A stretch of DNA of 59,859 nt from assembly GCA_028874195.1 (NCBI GenBank), contig JAPPLM010000013.1:1-59859 (forward strand). The letters are read 5' to 3'. A program made the translations under genes and the position numbers. The stretch is from Chloroflexota bacterium (GTDB taxonomy: Bacteria; Chloroflexota; UBA11872; VXOZ01). Shown here piece by piece: positions 6,098 through 13,173 of the stretch; positions within the stretch are counted from its first letter, which is position 1, and the number at the start of each line of letters is the position of its first letter. The notes below the pieces were generated by a model. It was not told the origin of the DNA. It was given only the letters and a program-made list of their open reading frames with translations, and did not search any database.

Positions 6098-6422
6098 CGT
6101 TGCCCGGAAGGTCGTACGAACTCGCGCTAAATTGCACGCGGACAAAGACCGACGCGCCTCGCGCATCTCCAGACGCCGAAACACCCTTCAGCTTGACGTG
6201 CGGCGTCAGTCCGTGACAAAATGCCATGCGTAGAAATGCAGTTGCACGTCCAAGTGGCACAGTGCGGTTGCAGTCTCTTGGCATTATGCAGTCGCCTGCG
6301 TTACGCCTTTTCCAAAGTCAACACTACCCAAAGACAACTTCTAAACCGCAATTTGCTCTTAGCGTTGCAAGCAGCGTTGCGCGTTTGCGCAACAGGCAGC
6401 TATGCCAGCGAGGAGGCGCCAC

Positions 6423-9400
6423 TTGGCCGGGTTCAAGGAAGTCAGTAGAGACCTCGACTTTCCCAGCATGGAGCATCGAATCCTCAAGTTCTGGGAGGAT
6501 ACCGCTGCCTTCAACAAGCTTGTGGAAAAGAACAAGGACAATCCCCGCTGGTCTTTCATTGACGGCCCCATTACGGCCAATAACCCCATGGGCGTCCACC
6601 ATGCATGGGGGCGTACCTATAAGGACGTCTACCAGCGCTTCAAGGCCATGCAGGGCTACGCGCAGCGCTACCAAAACGGCTTCGATTGCCAGGGGCTGTG
6701 GTTGGAAGTCGAGGTTGAGAAAGACCTCGGTTTCGACTCCAAGCACGAGATCGAGGAATTCGGCCTCGACAACTTCTCACGCGAGTGCCGCAAGCGCGTC
6801 GAGCACTTCTCCACGGTGCAGACGAACCAGTCCATCCGGCTCGGCCAGTGGATGGATTGGGACAACTCGTACTACACCATGGACGATGCCAACATCGAGC
6901 ACATTTGGTATTTCCTCAAGCGCTGCCACGAGAAGGGCTGGCTCTACAAGGGCTGGCGCTCGATGCCGTGGTGCATTCGCTGCGGCACCAGCCTCTCGCA
7001 GCATGAGTTGGTCGGCACGGACACGTACCGCGAGGTCACGCACCCGAGCATCACCCTACGGCTGCCGGTGAAGGGCCGTGAAAACGAGTATTTCATGGTG
7101 TGGACGACTACGCCGTGGACGCTGGCTGCCAATACCGCACTGGCCGTGCATCCCGATCTGACCTACGTGGCTGCCGAATCCAATGGGGACACCTATTACC
7201 TCTCAAAGGGCACGCTGGAAAGCGTGGGACGCGGCAAGCTGAACGCCGTGCGCGAATTCGCGGGCGCTGAGCTCGTGGGTTTGGAATACGTCGGCCCCTG
7301 GCCTGATCTGCCCGCCCAGCAAGGCTTTGCAACCAAGGTCGTTGGGTGGGACATCGTCGGCGAGGAAGAAGGCACCGGCATCGTGCATATCGCGCCGGGC
7401 TGCGGCGCAGAGGACTACGAACTCTCACAGGAGCACGGGCTGCACGTAATCGTGCCTATCGACGGCGATGGCAACTACGTTGAGGGCTTTGGCTCTCTTT
7501 CGGGTCGGAATATCACCGAGACCAATGAGCCGATCTTCGACACTCTGGAAGAAGCCGGCATCGTCTACCGCATCGAAGACTACACCCACCGCTATCCGGT
7601 CTGCTGGCGCTGCGGCGAGGAAGTGGCCTTTCGGCTGGTGGAGGAGTGGTTCATTTCCGCTGAGGAGATCCGCAGCCAGATGCTGGCGGAGAATCAAACC
7701 GTCGACTGGGTGCCGGAATATGGCCGGAAGCGCATGGACGACTGGCTCATCAACATGGGCGACTGGTGCATCTCCCGCAAGCGTTTCTGGGGCTTGCCGC
7801 TGCCGTTCTATCACTGTGAAGACTGTGACCACGTCACCATTGTCGGCACTGTGGCTGAACTTGAAGAACGGGCCACGGACGCCGCCAAAGTGCGCGCGCT
7901 GCCGGAATTACACCGCCCGTGGATTGATGAGATCACGATCAATTGCGCAGATTGCGGCGCTGAAGCGTCGCGCATTCCCGAAGTCGGCGATTGCTGGCTG
8001 GATGCCGGCATCGTACCGTTCTCCACGCTTGGCTACCTGGAGGGCAGCGCCGAATGGGGCAAGTGGTACCCCGCCGACTGGGTGAGCGAGATGCGCGAGC
8101 AGATTCGCCTCTGGTTCTATGCGCTGGCCTTCATGAGCGTTACGTTGGAAGACGTCCGCCCCTACCGCAACGTGCTCATCTACGAAAAAGTCAACGATGA
8201 GCACGGCAGGCCCATGCATAAGAGCCACGGCAACGCCATCTGGTTCGACGATGCCGTGGAGCAGATGGGCGCCGACGTCATGCGCTGGCTGTATTGCGAA
8301 AGCAACACGCAGCAGAACCTCAACTTTGGCTACGGCGTCGCCGCGGATGTGAAACGGCGGCTCTTGCTCTTCTGGAACGTGTACAACTTTTTTGTTACCT
8401 ATGCCCGTCTGGAGGACTTCGACCCGACCAAGGTCTCGGTGCCGCTGGAAGTGCGGTCAATCCTGGACCGCTGGATCATCGCGCTGCTCCACAAGCTCGT
8501 GCGGGATGTGACCGACGATTTGGAGCGTTTTGACGCATATAGCGCCTCGCGGCGCGTGAACAACTTCATCGAGCAGTTGTCCACGTGGTACGTGCGGCGC
8601 GGCCGCCGCCGCTATTGGAAGTCCGGTCAGGACCGCGACACGCTATCCGCGTATGTGACTCTCTACGAGGTCCTGACTACCCTAACGCGTACAATAGCGC
8701 CCGTTATGCCGTTCCTGACGGAAGAGGTGTACCAAAACCTCGTCCGAGGGGTAGACACCGGCGCGCCTGAGAGCGTCCACCACACCGAATGGCCGCGCTA
8801 CAACGCCTCGCTCATTGACGAAGACCTGTTGGCACACATGGGACTTGCCCAGCAGGTCGTCAGTCTCGGACGGGCGGCGCGCAGCACGAGCAAGATCAAG
8901 GTGCGCCAGCCGCTGCCGGAAATGCTGGTGCACGTGAAAACCGCTGACGAGCAGGCGGGGCTCGAGCGGTTGCAGGAGCACATACTGAGCGAACTCAACG
9001 TCAAGTCAATTCGCTTCGTCGGGCCGGATGAGGAGCTTGTAACATATGAACTCAAGCCGCGGTTCAAGCTGCTTGGCCCCAAGTACGGACGGCAGGTCAA
9101 AGCCATCGCGGCGGCGTTGGGTCAGACGGATGCCCAGGCCGGGGCGCGATTGGTCGCGCAAGGTGAGCCAGTTTCAGTGGTGGTGGATGGAGAATCCATC
9201 GAGTTATTGCCTGAGGAAGTGGACGTGCAGGCGCGGGAACGCGCAGACTACAGTGTTGCCACGGAAGAAGGCTATCTCGTTGCGCTCCACACGGAGATTA
9301 CGCCGGAACTCGAACGGGAAGGCATGGCGCGGGAACTCATCCATCACATTCAGAACCTGCGTCGGGAGGCTGACTTTGCGCTCTCCGATCGCATTGTGAC

Positions 9401-9593
9401 GTATGTTGGCGTGACCGACGGAGAGGCAGATCAAGCCAACGTTGCGGCGATGCTGAGCGCGCATGGCGACGCGGTGGCCCAAGAGACGCTGTCCCTTCGT
9501 GTTGAGCCGTCTGTTGCGCCGGAGGACGCGCATCAGGAGGATGTTGACCTGAACGGCATCGCGGTGACGCTTGGCGTGGAACGGGCATCCTAA
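6423..9593 (+). CDS. ileS: Isoleucyl-tRNA synthetase
   Basis: Class I synthetase charging tRNA-Ile, 1056 residues. The HIGH box is an unusual HHAWG (residues 59-63, after ANNPMGV) and the KMSKS box is MHKSH (598-602). The CP1 editing domain keeps TTPWTLAANT and HIAPGCGAEDY. Zinc-type CxxC pairs (CWRCG, CEDCD, CADCG) are present. The C-terminus has the anticodon-binding domain plus the DUF5915 extension typical of the eukaryote-like, often mupirocin-insensitive, IleS class (family knowledge; resistance is inference). I choose the TTG at 6423 because AGGAGG at 6411-6416 sits six bases before it. An ATG at 6402 lies upstream of that site and would add seven basic residues. No T-box leader is evident. 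Confidence 0.95.
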   Translation: MAGFKEVSRDLDFPSMEHRILKFWEDTAAFNKLVEKNKDNPRWSFIDGPITANNPMGVHHAWGRTYKDVYQRFKAMQGYAQRYQNGFDCQGLWLEVEVEKDLGFDSKHEIEEFGLDNFSRECRKRVEHFSTVQTNQSIRLGQWMDWDNSYYTMDDANIEHIWYFLKRCHEKGWLYKGWRSMPWCIRCGTSLSQHELVGTDTYREVTHPSITLRLPVKGRENEYFMVWTTTPWTLAANTALAVHPDLTYVAAESNGDTYYLSKGTLESVGRGKLNAVREFAGAELVGLEYVGPWPDLPAQQGFATKVVGWDIVGEEEGTGIVHIAPGCGAEDYELSQEHGLHVIVPIDGDGNYVEGFGSLSGRNITETNEPIFDTLEEAGIVYRIEDYTHRYPVCWRCGEEVAFRLVEEWFISAEEIRSQMLAENQTVDWVPEYGRKRMDDWLINMGDWCISRKRFWGLPLPFYHCEDCDHVTIVGTVAELEERATDAAKVRALPELHRPWIDEITINCADCGAEASRIPEVGDCWLDAGIVPFSTLGYLEGSAEWGKWYPADWVSEMREQIRLWFYALAFMSVTLEDVRPYRNVLIYEKVNDEHGRPMHKSHGNAIWFDDAVEQMGADVMRWLYCESNTQQNLNFGYGVAADVKRRLLLFWNVYNFFVTYARLEDFDPTKVSVPLEVRSILDRWIIALLHKLVRDVTDDLERFDAYSASRRVNNFIEQLSTWYVRRGRRRYWKSGQDRDTLSAYVTLYEVLTTLTRTIAPVMPFLTEEVYQNLVRGVDTGAPESVHHTEWPRYNASLIDEDLLAHMGLAQQVVSLGRAARSTSKIKVRQPLPEMLVHVKTADEQAGLERLQEHILSELNVKSIRFVGPDEELVTYELKPRFKLLGPKYGRQVKAIAAALGQTDAQAGARLVAQGEPVSVVVDGESIELLPEEVDVQARERADYSVATEEGYLVALHTEITPELEREGMARELIHHIQNLRREADFALSDRIVTYVGVTDGEADQANVAAMLSAHGDAVAQETLSLRVEPSVAPEDAHQEDVDLNGIAVTLGVERAS

Positions 9594-9739
9594 GCGGTCC
9601 AGGTTTGCAGGGCGAATGAATAGGAGCGCTCCCAGACCAATCAGCGTCTGAATTGCTTGAATGCGAAGTAGCGTACGTTAACTTGAATTGAGTTCTAATC
9701 GTAGTCTGACTACATATCCACAACGAAAGGAAGATCGAA

Positions 9740-10201
9740 ATGGCTGAGAATGCGCAGACGTTGCCCCGTATTTTCAAGTGGTTCGCTGAAGGCAAGATCG
9801 CTGCCTCCGGTTTCCCAGAGACCGAAGAGGAACTTTGCGCGGTGGCGGCGCAGGGTATTTCACACATCGTCGCTGCCTCCCGCAAAGAGCCGGATACTGA
9901 AGCCATCGCACGCCTCGGCATGACGGTCGAGACTTTCAAAGGCGCGAGCAGCGACGTGGCGACCCTTGATGCTGCGGTGGAATCCCTGCACGCGGCGGCT
10001 TTACGCGACGAAAAAGCCCTCGTTCACTGAGGCTCCGGTTTCGGCGGGGCCGGTACGGTCCTGGCAGGGTACTTGGTGAAGTACGAAGGCTACGCGCCGG
10101 CAGATGCCGTGCAGGCGCTGCGCGATTTTCGTCCCGGCGACTTGAAGGGCGATGAGGTGGACGCGTTCATCGCCGACTACGCGGAGAGTCTGAGCTCTTA
10201 G
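9740..10201 (+). CDS. Dual-specificity-phosphatase-like protein with in-frame TGA at the catalytic Cys position
   Basis: The frame begins at an ATG with a GAAAGGAAG site. It reads like the small cysteine-phosphatase (PTP/DSP) family up to KALVH, meets TGA at 10028-10030 (codon 97), and continues in frame as GSGFGGAGTVLAGYLVKYEG to a TAG at 10201. In the family signature HCxxGxGRxGT the TGA replaces the catalytic Cys. The codon for the phosphate-binding Arg is GGG (Gly, 10046-10048), and no clear general-acid Asp is seen. A strong terminator starts 29 bases after the TAG, which supports a 153-codon gene. It may be a decayed gene, a pseudo-enzyme, a base error or a selenoprotein; loss of the Arg argues against an active enzyme. 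Strict translation stops at 10030. Confidence 0.65.
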
Positions 10202-10229: not shown

Positions 10230-10268
10230 AAAAAGCCCGCTACGATCAAAGTAGCGGGCTTCTCTTTT
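10230..10268 (+). terminator. Rho-independent terminator after the phosphatase-like gene
   Basis: AGCCCGCTAC (10234-10243), a seven-base loop, the exact complement (10251-10260), then TCTCTTTT. With AAAA on its left it can also work on the other strand, ending the leftward transcript from 10603. Confidence 0.9.
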
Positions 10269-10327: not shown

Positions 10328-10603
10328 CTAGTTTGGAATGAGCTCCAATGCCGCCAATACACCCGCCAATGCTACAAACAACAAGACGAACTGAATCGTT
10401 AGCTGGTTGAAGCGCTTCTCCAATTGGCTAAAGCGCCTCTCCATCCGCAACTCCAAAGCTTGCAACCCCGTGCTGAGGTCTGTCTTCGTAGCGAGTTCGC
10501 CATGCACCGTGCTTACTAGGCCAACGAGTGCCTCAGCCTGTGACTCGTCGAAGCCTGATCCTGTGAGCATCTTTACTGCTTTGTGGGTGTCAAGCACTGC
10601 CAT
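10328..10603 (-). CDS. Small DUF1640/CCDC90-like membrane coiled-coil protein
   Basis: A 91-residue protein. An N-terminal helical segment (FDESQAEALVGLV, residues 18-30) resembles the DUF1640/CCDC90 family. A KTDLSTGLQALE stretch and a heptad coiled coil (about 50-68) follow, and a single C-terminal membrane helix (VLLFVALAGVLAALEL) ends the chain. The family usually forms membrane-anchored coiled-coil oligomers; in mitochondria, members regulate the calcium uniporter. The bacterial role is unknown. It starts at an ATG and lies 50 bases after another small membrane coiled-coil gene in the same direction, so the two may be cotranscribed. Confidence 0.7.
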   Translation of the reverse strand: MAVLDTHKAVKMLTGSGFDESQAEALVGLVSTVHGELATKTDLSTGLQALELRMERRFSQLEKRFNQLTIQFVLLFVALAGVLAALELIPN

Positions 10604-10653: not shown

Positions 10654-10869
10654 CTAACCATGCTTGTTGGGCGCGTTGGCATCCGATCCTTTGGCACTTG
10701 CGAAGTAGCCTTCCAGTAGTCCTTCAATACGAGCAAGCCTTTGCTCAATACCAGACACGCGGCTTTCAAGGCTGGACATGCGACCGTCAAGGCTGCGGAA
10801 TTGCAGCATGCTGAATCCACCAACTACAACGCCGGTGACAATAACAGTCGTATTAGATTCCCAGCCCAT
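10654..10869 (-). CDS. Small N-terminally anchored coiled-coil protein
   Basis: A 71-residue protein: a short N-terminus, one membrane helix (VIVTGVVVGGFSML, residues 9-22), then a heptad-like region (SLDGRMSSLESRVSGIEQRL) ending in EGLLEGYF and a hydrophilic tail. The layout mirrors the 61-residue protein at 22282-22467 (…LEGYLLRHVF), so the two look like distant members of one family. No enzymatic motif is present. It lies upstream of the DUF1640-like gene with inverse topology (anchor at the N- rather than C-terminus), so the products could pair at the membrane (inference). Confidence 0.55.
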   Translation of the reverse strand: MGWESNTTVIVTGVVVGGFSMLQFRSLDGRMSSLESRVSGIEQRLARIEGLLEGYFASAKGSDANAPNKHG

Positions 10870-11059: not shown

Positions 11060-12397
11060 TCAGACTTTCGGTACTTGAGGATTCGGCTCCGGCCGGATGT
11101 GCTGCGCCAGGAACGCCACGAGTTCCCCAATCGGCACACGTTCCTGCTCCATGCTGTCGCGATGGCGCACGGTCACCGTGTTGTCGTCTTTGGTCTCAAA
11201 GTCCACGGTAATGCCGAACGGCGTGCCGACCTCGTCCTGCCGGCGGTAGCGGCGGCCGATGCTGCCACTTTCGTCGTAGAAGACATCCCAGTGCAACTGC
11301 AAGTCCGCCACGATCTCCTTGGCGATGTCCGGCAAGCCGCCCTTCTTCACCAGCGGCAAGACCGCCGCCTTGATGGGGGCGAGAAACGGATGGAAGCGCA
11401 ACACGACCCGCGAATCACCCTTGGCGTCAATGTCCTGGTCGTAGGCGTCGAGCAGGAATGTAAGAAGCGCGCGGTCAGCCCCGGCGGCGGGCTCGATGAC
11501 GTAGGGTGAGACGTGTTCCTTGTTCTGCTCGTCGTAGAACGTGAGGTCTTGGCCGGTAGCCTCACTGTGACTGCGCAGGTCGTAGTCGGTGCGGTTTGAA
11601 ATGCCTTCCAACTCACCCCAGCCGAACGGAAACTGATACTCGATGTCCCAACAGTACTTGGCATAGAAGGCCAGTTCGTCATCGCCGTGCTGGCGCAAGC
11701 GCAGGTTCTCCTCCTTTACGCCGTAAGCGACGTACCATTGGCGCCGCGCTTCCAGCCAATAGGCGTGCCAGTGGTCGTCGGTGCCCGGCTCGCAGAAGAA
11801 CTCCAACTCCATCTGCTCGAACTCGCGCTGGCGGAAGATGAAGTTTCCGGTCGTAATCTCGTTGCGGTATGACTTGCCGATCTGCGCAATGCCGAACGGC
11901 AGCCGTTGCCGCGACGAATTGAGCACGTTCTTGAAGTTCACGAACATACCCTGCGCGGTCTCCGGGCGCATGAAGGCAACGGCGGAATCATCTTCCACGG
12001 GTCCGACGTGCGTCTTGAACATGGTGAGGAAACGGCGTGGATCGGTGAACTCGCCGTCGCAATTGGGGCACGACTCGCCTTCGAGATGGTCGACGCGAAA
12101 GCGCTGGTGGCAACTCGTGCACTCCACGAGCGTATCGGCAAAGTGGGAAGCGTGACCGGTGGTCTGCCACACGCTGGGGTTCATGATGACGCCGGTCTCC
12201 ACGCCGACGACGTTATCACGCGTGCGCACCGTATTGTGCCACCACGCTTCGCGCACGTTGCGTTTCAGCGCGATGCCCAGCGGCCCGTAGTCCCAAAAAC
12301 TCTCAAAACCACCGTAGATTTCGCTGGAGGGATAGACGAATCCCCGCCGTTTGCACAGGCTTACGATCTCTTCCATGGTGTCGGATTTTGCTGCCAA
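11060..12397 (-). CDS. glyS: Glycyl-tRNA synthetase, dimeric class II type
   Basis: Charges tRNA-Gly; this is the single-chain eukaryote/archaea/Gram-positive form, not the two-subunit GlyQ/GlyS. RRGFVYPSSEIYGG and FWDYGPLG mark motif 1 and the glycine pocket. CTSCHQRF plus CPNCD form a zinc site, and FRPE-type class II residues (FMRPETAQGMF) and a C-terminal anticodon-binding domain follow. The open frame begins with a GTG at 12412 that overlaps the recO stop, but AAGGGAG sits inside it, five bases before a TTG at 12397. That TTG gives the typical MAAKSDTMEEIV beginning (445 residues), so I use it. It forms an operon with recO. Confidence 0.94.
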   Translation of the reverse strand: MAAKSDTMEEIVSLCKRRGFVYPSSEIYGGFESFWDYGPLGIALKRNVREAWWHNTVRTRDNVVGVETGVIMNPSVWQTTGHASHFADTLVECTSCHQRFRVDHLEGESCPNCDGEFTDPRRFLTMFKTHVGPVEDDSAVAFMRPETAQGMFVNFKNVLNSSRQRLPFGIAQIGKSYRNEITTGNFIFRQREFEQMELEFFCEPGTDDHWHAYWLEARRQWYVAYGVKEENLRLRQHGDDELAFYAKYCWDIEYQFPFGWGELEGISNRTDYDLRSHSEATGQDLTFYDEQNKEHVSPYVIEPAAGADRALLTFLLDAYDQDIDAKGDSRVVLRFHPFLAPIKAAVLPLVKKGGLPDIAKEIVADLQLHWDVFYDESGSIGRRYRRQDEVGTPFGITVDFETKDDNTVTVRHRDSMEQERVPIGELVAFLAQHIRPEPNPQVPKV

Positions 12398-12408
12398 CGT
12401 GACTCCCT

Positions 12409-13173
12409 TCACGACTGTGTCTTCAACGCGCGCATACGCTCCAGAAAAGGTGTAGTCTTTAGGTCCTGCTCGGCGACGTAACGCACAAACGTATCTGCGG
12501 TCTCTTCAAGCTGGGTGGTTGTGGCGGGGTCCACTTGCAGACGTTCCACGGTCTGCAGCGGCTCTTGTGCCAACCAGCGGAGGCACTTGATCGCGCGCAC
12601 CGCAATTGGCGATCCTGTAACTCCCCCGCACGGTGCGCACACCACGCCGCCGCTATCCGGTCGCGCCCGGTTGCCATCTTCGGAGAGCGCATTGCCGCAC
12701 CGGGCACACTCTTGTAGCTGGGCCTGGTACCCGAGGGTCGCCAATAGCTGTAGTTTATAGGCTACCAACACCAGCGGCAAGGCAGTCGTAACCGCCAGCG
12801 CGCTCAGCGCCTTGACGAGCAAGATGAATTCGGCGTGCGCTTCCACCTCTTCTTCGACCAGAATGTGCGCGGTCTCCACGGCTTGATAGGCGTAGGGCAA
12901 ACGGTTGAGATCGGTGCGTAGCTCCGGGAACGTCTGCACGGTCTCCGCCTGCACGACCAGGTCCAAGCTCCGCCGGCGCACTACGAAGACCTTGGCCAGC
13001 GTGAAGAGTTCCAAGTGTCCCGCCATGCGGCTCGCGGGCCGGCGCACGCCCTTGGCAATGACATTCAGCCGTCCCCGGTCGGGCGTAAGCAGAGTGAGCC
13101 GTCTATCGGCCTCCTGAAAGTCCGACCGCCGCAGGACGATTGCTTCCGCGATGTAGGTGCGTTCTCTTGCCAT
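12409..13173 (-). CDS. recO: DNA repair protein RecO
   Basis: A recombination mediator that, with RecR, loads RecA onto SSB-coated single strands and anneals complementary strands. The 254 residues are normal. The N-terminal OB-fold begins TYIAEAIVLRRSDFQEADRRL, the middle is helical, and a zinc-type site is formed by CARCG and CAPCG. The ATG start opens an apparent two-gene unit whose stop touches the reading frame of glycyl-tRNA synthetase. RecO is often placed next to glyS or era in bacteria, which supports the call. Confidence 0.92.
   Translation of the reverse strand: MARERTYIAEAIVLRRSDFQEADRRLTLLTPDRGRLNVIAKGVRRPASRMAGHLELFTLAKVFVVRRRSLDLVVQAETVQTFPELRTDLNRLPYAYQAVETAHILVEEEVEAHAEFILLVKALSALAVTTALPLVLVAYKLQLLATLGYQAQLQECARCGNALSEDGNRARPDSGGVVCAPCGGVTGSPIAVRAIKCLRWLAQEPLQTVERLQVDPATTTQLEETADTFVRYVAEQDLKTTPFLERMRALKTQS

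Follow-up and report, generated by a model that had tools for sequence, protein, structure and literature searches.

In a Chloroflexota contig we found a gene with the fold of a dual-specificity phosphatase (DSP) in which an in-frame UGA stands where the catalytic cysteine codon would be, and comparison with its homologues indicates that this UGA (10028-10030) almost certainly encodes selenocysteine (Sec). This conclusion draws on the conservation of the TGA, on selection acting past it, on the presence of the Sec machinery, on a hairpin that fits the bacterial SECIS (bSECIS) model and on invariant fourfold sites. We consider the whole account likely, namely that Sec is inserted into a PTP scaffold that carries out selenol redox or sulfur chemistry instead of acting as a phosphatase. 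Positions are those of the window, the whole stretch of DNA analysed (59,859 nucleotides). The Sec family was sampled in eight genomes from two genera, the window's own genus and a genus, here called g8, from another family of the same class; all are draft assemblies, and the named ones are metagenome assembled. Some of the named Chloroflexota metagenome-assembled relatives presumably derive from sponge microbiomes.

The ATG at 9740 opens a 96-codon open reading frame (9740-10027) that runs up to the TGA, and beyond it the frame holds no further stop until the TAG at 10199-10201. Standard annotation would truncate such a gene at the TGA. The features of the locus are as follows.

6402..9593, + strand: ileS, upstream neighbour conserved in the genus (context only, outside the system)
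9727..9733, + strand: probable Shine-Dalgarno sequence AAGGAAG, from sequence inspection, 6 bases from the ATG
9740..10201, + strand: predicted Sec-DSP gene of 153 codons with a TAG stop and an in-frame TGA for Sec (U97); PTP-SAK and DSPc matches across the TGA, which orthologues in 7 other genomes share
10028..10030, + strand: UGA predicted to encode Sec, in line with the PTP nucleophile (HUGSGFGGAGT), from alignments of orthologues and Cys homologues
10045..10063, + strand: SECIS-like bacterial hairpin CGGGGCCG[GUA]CGGUCCUG, from fold, spacing and invariant fourfold sites
10046..10048, + strand: Gly103 codon GGG, where Cx5R has its phosphate-binding Arg, from alignment with Cys homologues that keep the Arg
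10233..10261, + strand: intrinsic-terminator-like hairpin 3' of the TAG
11060..12412, - strand: glycyl-tRNA synthetase gene, downstream neighbour conserved in the genus (context only, outside the system)

Every genome of the genus has the gene between ileS and glyS, followed by recO where the contig extends that far. In the second family its neighbours are different, so its position gives no functional hint and its conservation is independent of hitch-hiking with one neighbourhood; no informative operon partner was seen. Two small open reading frames, 10328-10603 (-) and 10654-10869 (-), with a coiled-coil-like stretch and a hydrophobic segment, lie between the Sec gene and glyS. Each is matched in only some loci of the genus (the first in L013, L050 and L052, the second in L012 and L051), and the window carries both.

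The identity of the domain is clear from the protein obtained by reading through the TGA (153 residues), which in Pfam matches PTP-SAK (1e-16 over residues 9-124) and DSPc (9.6e-9 over residues 32-133). Both matches cross the TGA, so that the sequence past it supplies the latter half of a PTP/DSP domain, and the TGA aligns with the nucleophile of the HCx5R signature. This agrees with a reading made from the sequence alone, which had placed the TGA at the catalytic cysteine of a PTP/DSP and had noted the terminator close behind the TAG. Apart from these two families, only Tc-R-P appeared in the Pfam scans, with no rhodanese or DUF442 match, and no model of NCBIfam 20.0 exceeded its curated cut-off (best NF009025, 16 bits versus 505). 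An AlphaFold2 model built from 19 aligned sequences (mean pLDDT, 90.2; pTM, 0.86) resembles VHZ/DUSP23 best (Z 21.9, rmsd 1.6 over 144 residues, 28% identity). By sequence, the nearest proteins of solved structure are the dual-specificity phosphatase-family protein 25xa and human DUSP23/VHZ.

The genome to which the window belongs (G000; 3.5 Mb, 98% complete) holds selA, selB, selD and tRNA-Sec, the set that the sequence-only reading had proposed to look for. The tRNA, called SeC(tca), has the anticodon TCA and scores 67 bits versus a cut-off of 47; SelB scores 377 bits versus a cut-off of 242, and SelA (571 bits) and SelD (381 bits) are over their curated cut-offs. SelB is also over its cut-off in all genomes with the Sec gene except one (G005), which is only 69% complete. 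The lineage of the window looks rich in selenoproteins. The SelD gene itself (G000:C63:53216-54145, L047) carries an in-frame TGA near the N-terminus (SCAGU-AGKLG), as it does in two further genomes (G001 and G016), and an in-frame TGA stands at the redox site of at least four AhpC/TSA-like genes in this genome. The motifs of the latter are WASWURC, FWTYTUPVC (twice, in an opposed pair) and FWTYGUINC, at L069 683 (G000:C25), L067 622 and 944(-) (G000:C5:15516-16662) and L068 712 (G000:C30); the opposed pair adjoins a gene for a CcdA-like membrane protein (L035 14317-15069). Searches of this genome gave no match to the DsbG-like family PF13462 and five matches to rhodanese (PF00581), none with an internal stop.

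Downstream of the UGA, 15 bases on, all eight genes read GGGGCCGGTACGG(T/C)CCT. In the window this forms the hairpin at 10045-10063, with 8 bp and a GUA loop closed by G-C, and the apical loop begins 22 nt past the UGA, inside the range applied for the loop start (16-37 nt after the UGA). Its energy is -11 to -15 kcal/mol and it falls within the bSECIS constraints, for which we used a published model (PMC13188914). The 24-mer 10043-10066 has an MFE of -15.1 kcal/mol (z -3.06), equalled by 1 of 200 shuffles. Among synonymous recodings, 16% yield a SECIS-compliant hairpin and 3% one as stable; the hairpin is therefore supporting and insufficient alone. The fourfold sites are a stronger sign of a SECIS than stem covariation. 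Within the genus those of codons 103-109 are 100% identical, compared to 56% upstream of the TGA and 61% downstream of codon 112, and the identity over codons 98-112 is 0.87 versus 0.62 for the whole gene (permutation p 0.001). Codons 103-106 are identical even across families, where the test over codons 98-112 reaches only p 0.11, and stem changes between the genera are one-sided (G-U to G-C), so that formal covariation is weak. The sequence-only reading had instead pointed to a 6-bp stem directly behind the UGA (GGCTCC/GGGGCC, 10031-10051), which was abandoned: its 5' arm varies (GGCTCG in G001, GGCGGC in G003, GGGTCG in g8) and its loop would start about 6 nt after the UGA, outside the permitted range. 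Its suggestion that a bacterial SECIS fold be sought is answered by the hairpin at 10045-10063. Elsewhere in the same genome, one Prx-like selenoprotein gene has GUUGCCA[GGU]UGGCAGC at +21, nearly the same spacing, and in SelD a hairpin with apical GGUGC can form further down, at +33; three other TGA-containing Prx-like genes gave no clean hairpin under the same simple model.

Sec is not the only departure from the phosphatase pattern. Where the eight Sec genes have their TGA, at position 97, every aligned Cys homologue has its Cys. Six residues further on, the phosphate-binding Arg has become Gly103 in all eight Sec proteins (HUGxGxGGAGT), whereas it is retained in the 13 Cys homologues listed (HCxxGxGR[TA]G) among the homologues of the phylum that were examined. 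A gap of three residues, again in 8/8 by alignment, spans the Asp of the general-acid loop, a loop that most Cys homologues examined keep with its Asp. The sequence-only reading had already seen the loss of the Arg codon (GGG) and no evident general acid, and both observations prove to be fixed throughout the clade. The fold, His96, the P-loop glycines, W14 and R131 are retained. No second, resolving Cys is conserved in the Sec proteins. At E 1e-15, the hits in 400 sampled Chloroflexota genomes included no Cys form with Gly in place of Arg. Both g8 genomes (G016 and G020) have, elsewhere and beside the Sec form, a separate PTP-SAK gene with Cys and Arg (L023, L024), which means that in g8 the Sec protein is not simply that enzyme with its Cys exchanged for Sec; no such separate gene was detected in the window's genus. 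Taken together, Sec, the Arg-to-Gly change and the loss of the acid loop suggest a change of chemistry. Phosphatase function has very likely been lost, as judged from the alignments, and the selenocysteine phosphatase envisaged earlier is, as an activity, probably wrong. We find it slightly easier to believe than to doubt that, in a phosphatase lineage with the PTP fold, Sec took the place of Cys and both the phosphate-binding Arg and the general acid were dropped, so that a new selenoenzyme class arose, working by redox chemistry or chalcogen transfer; a Cys-bearing member of this clade is not known.

How such a protein might be made and work can be outlined. At the UGA (10028-10030) SelB, which presumably binds the hairpin at 10045-10063, would deliver Sec-tRNA(UCA) to the ribosome; Sec97 would be inserted and translation would proceed to the UAG at 10199. 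The usual means of binding phosphate and protonating the leaving group would be gone, and the P-loop amides and helix dipole could still stabilise an anionic nucleophile. Most probably the P-loop serves as a cradle for a highly nucleophilic selenolate engaged in redox or sulfane-transfer chemistry, for example the reduction of a peroxide or persulfide by way of Se-OH, selenenyl-amide or Se-S intermediates. External thiols would be the reductant that recycles Sec97, as the Sec proteins share no resolving Cys. In PTPs the cysteine is known to form sulfenic acids and sulfenyl amides, and our Foldseek list includes a structure with a C93-cyclic sulfenamide (ShufPTP, 9e9m). A redox function is assumed for most selenoproteins (PMC9312934, PMC13188914). 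By analogy, and given Sec, redox-type chemistry has about an even chance or somewhat better; we prefer it to a role as a sulfane or selenium carrier, which seems less likely.

A carrier role would make the protein specifically a selenium- or sulfur-transfer protein, rhodanese-like, with Se-S or Se-Se held on Sec97, and not an enzyme of the peroxidase or thiol-oxidoreductase type. The single Sec without a resolving Cys would suit this role, rhodanese-like selenoproteins are known (PMC13188914), and the PTP-fold domain DUF442 is a proven sulfur transferase (PMC5823870), so the PTP fold can leave phosphate chemistry. Against it, the gene has no operon link to sulfur or selenium genes and the protein has no rhodanese Pfam match, and we give this role perhaps one chance in a few.

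It is distinctly less probable that the protein receives Sec yet remains a hydrolase of phosphoesters or other oxyanions, with other groups replacing the Arg and the acid. The conserved fold and P-loop glycines, with VHZ as the closest structure, would fit a hydrolase; an invariant D72 lies near the shortened acid loop and might replace the general acid, and R131 is kept in all homologues. What weighs against it is that the Cx5R Arg kept by Cys homologues and the acid loop are absent from every Sec protein, and such losses cripple PTP activity in known enzymes.

Readings in which the UGA is not Sec fare worse still. The same in-frame TGA is present in 6/6 genomes of the genus examined, where the five other proteins are 82-86% identical to that of the window, and in 2/2 g8 genomes examined (47% identity); among the 400 Chloroflexota genomes searched only these eight carry it. 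Within the genus, dN/dS averages 0.097/1.12 upstream of the TGA and 0.074/0.55 downstream, or 0.085/0.86 when the codons of the SECIS hairpin are left out. The tail is thus under purifying selection equal to that on the head (dN/dS about 0.09 on both sides), and the TGA is unchanged even though synonymous sites in the genus are near saturation. Over about 50 codons the tail has no internal indels, and it is 85-93% identical within the genus and about 50% identical across families. The 32-base H-UGA motif did not occur in shuffles of the window, and an exact-motif search for viral copies found none. If the TGA were a true stop, the product would be a 96-residue protein and the tail decaying or untranslated, as in a pseudogene. 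TGA is a normal bacterial stop and the Arg is lost, as such a reading would expect, yet the low dN/dS of the tail (about 0.1), its preserved length and identity, the TGA in 8/8 orthologues and the complete Sec machinery make this highly improbable, and a decaying gene is ruled out in practice by the eight orthologues and the tail dN/dS. The sequence-only reading had called Sec conceivable and had held decay, or a pseudo-phosphatase, to be at least as likely; the first part is now strongly supported by the machinery, the shared TGA, the selection downstream and the hairpin, and decay is in practice refuted. The answer to its question whether close homologues have TGC, TGA or neither also settles its worry about a base error: a miscalled or misassembled TGC or TGT, only one base away in a draft assembly, has a practically negligible chance when eight separate assemblies show the identical TGA.

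Within the open-access literature this is a new selenoprotein family of modest spread, and we found no case there of a natural Sec-containing DSP or PTP. Most characterised selenoproteins have a thioredoxin-like fold, and this one, if confirmed, would extend the selenium biochemistry of nature to a further fold. It would also illustrate how a hydrolase can become a selenoenzyme, by retaining its nucleophile in a more reactive form and losing the groups that bind phosphate, and it makes directly testable the question whether Sec together with loss of the Arg turns a phosphatase P-loop into a redox catalyst. Inventories of prokaryotic selenoproteins with 87 families (PMC9312934) and, in 2026, 119 families (PMC13188914) list rhodanese and arsenate reductase but neither a PTP nor a DSP, and the 2026 review (PMC13188914) nowhere uses the word phosphatase.

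The closest known systems are VHZ/DUSP23 and the small bacterial and archaeal DSPs (PF22784, PF00782; SsoPTP, Tk-PTP), which share the fold, the position of the P-loop, the His before the nucleophile, the glycine pattern and the R131 region; the window protein differs in having Sec for Cys, Gly for Arg and an acid loop three residues shorter. DSP-fold pseudophosphatases such as human STYX (2r0b) likewise lack the full catalytic set. STYX lost its nucleophile, whereas in the window protein the nucleophile becomes Sec and the Arg and acid are lost. The sulfur transferase domain of Blh, DUF442, has the PTP fold and transfers sulfur rather than hydrolysing phosphate (PMC5823870), but it uses Cys and is a separate family by Pfam scans. 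In the predicted Sec-containing rhodanese and arsenate reductase a nucleophilic Sec similarly replaces the catalytic Cys of a fold that handles anions or sulfur; these belong to other domain families with no sequence relation in Pfam scans, whereas the window protein has the DSP fold.
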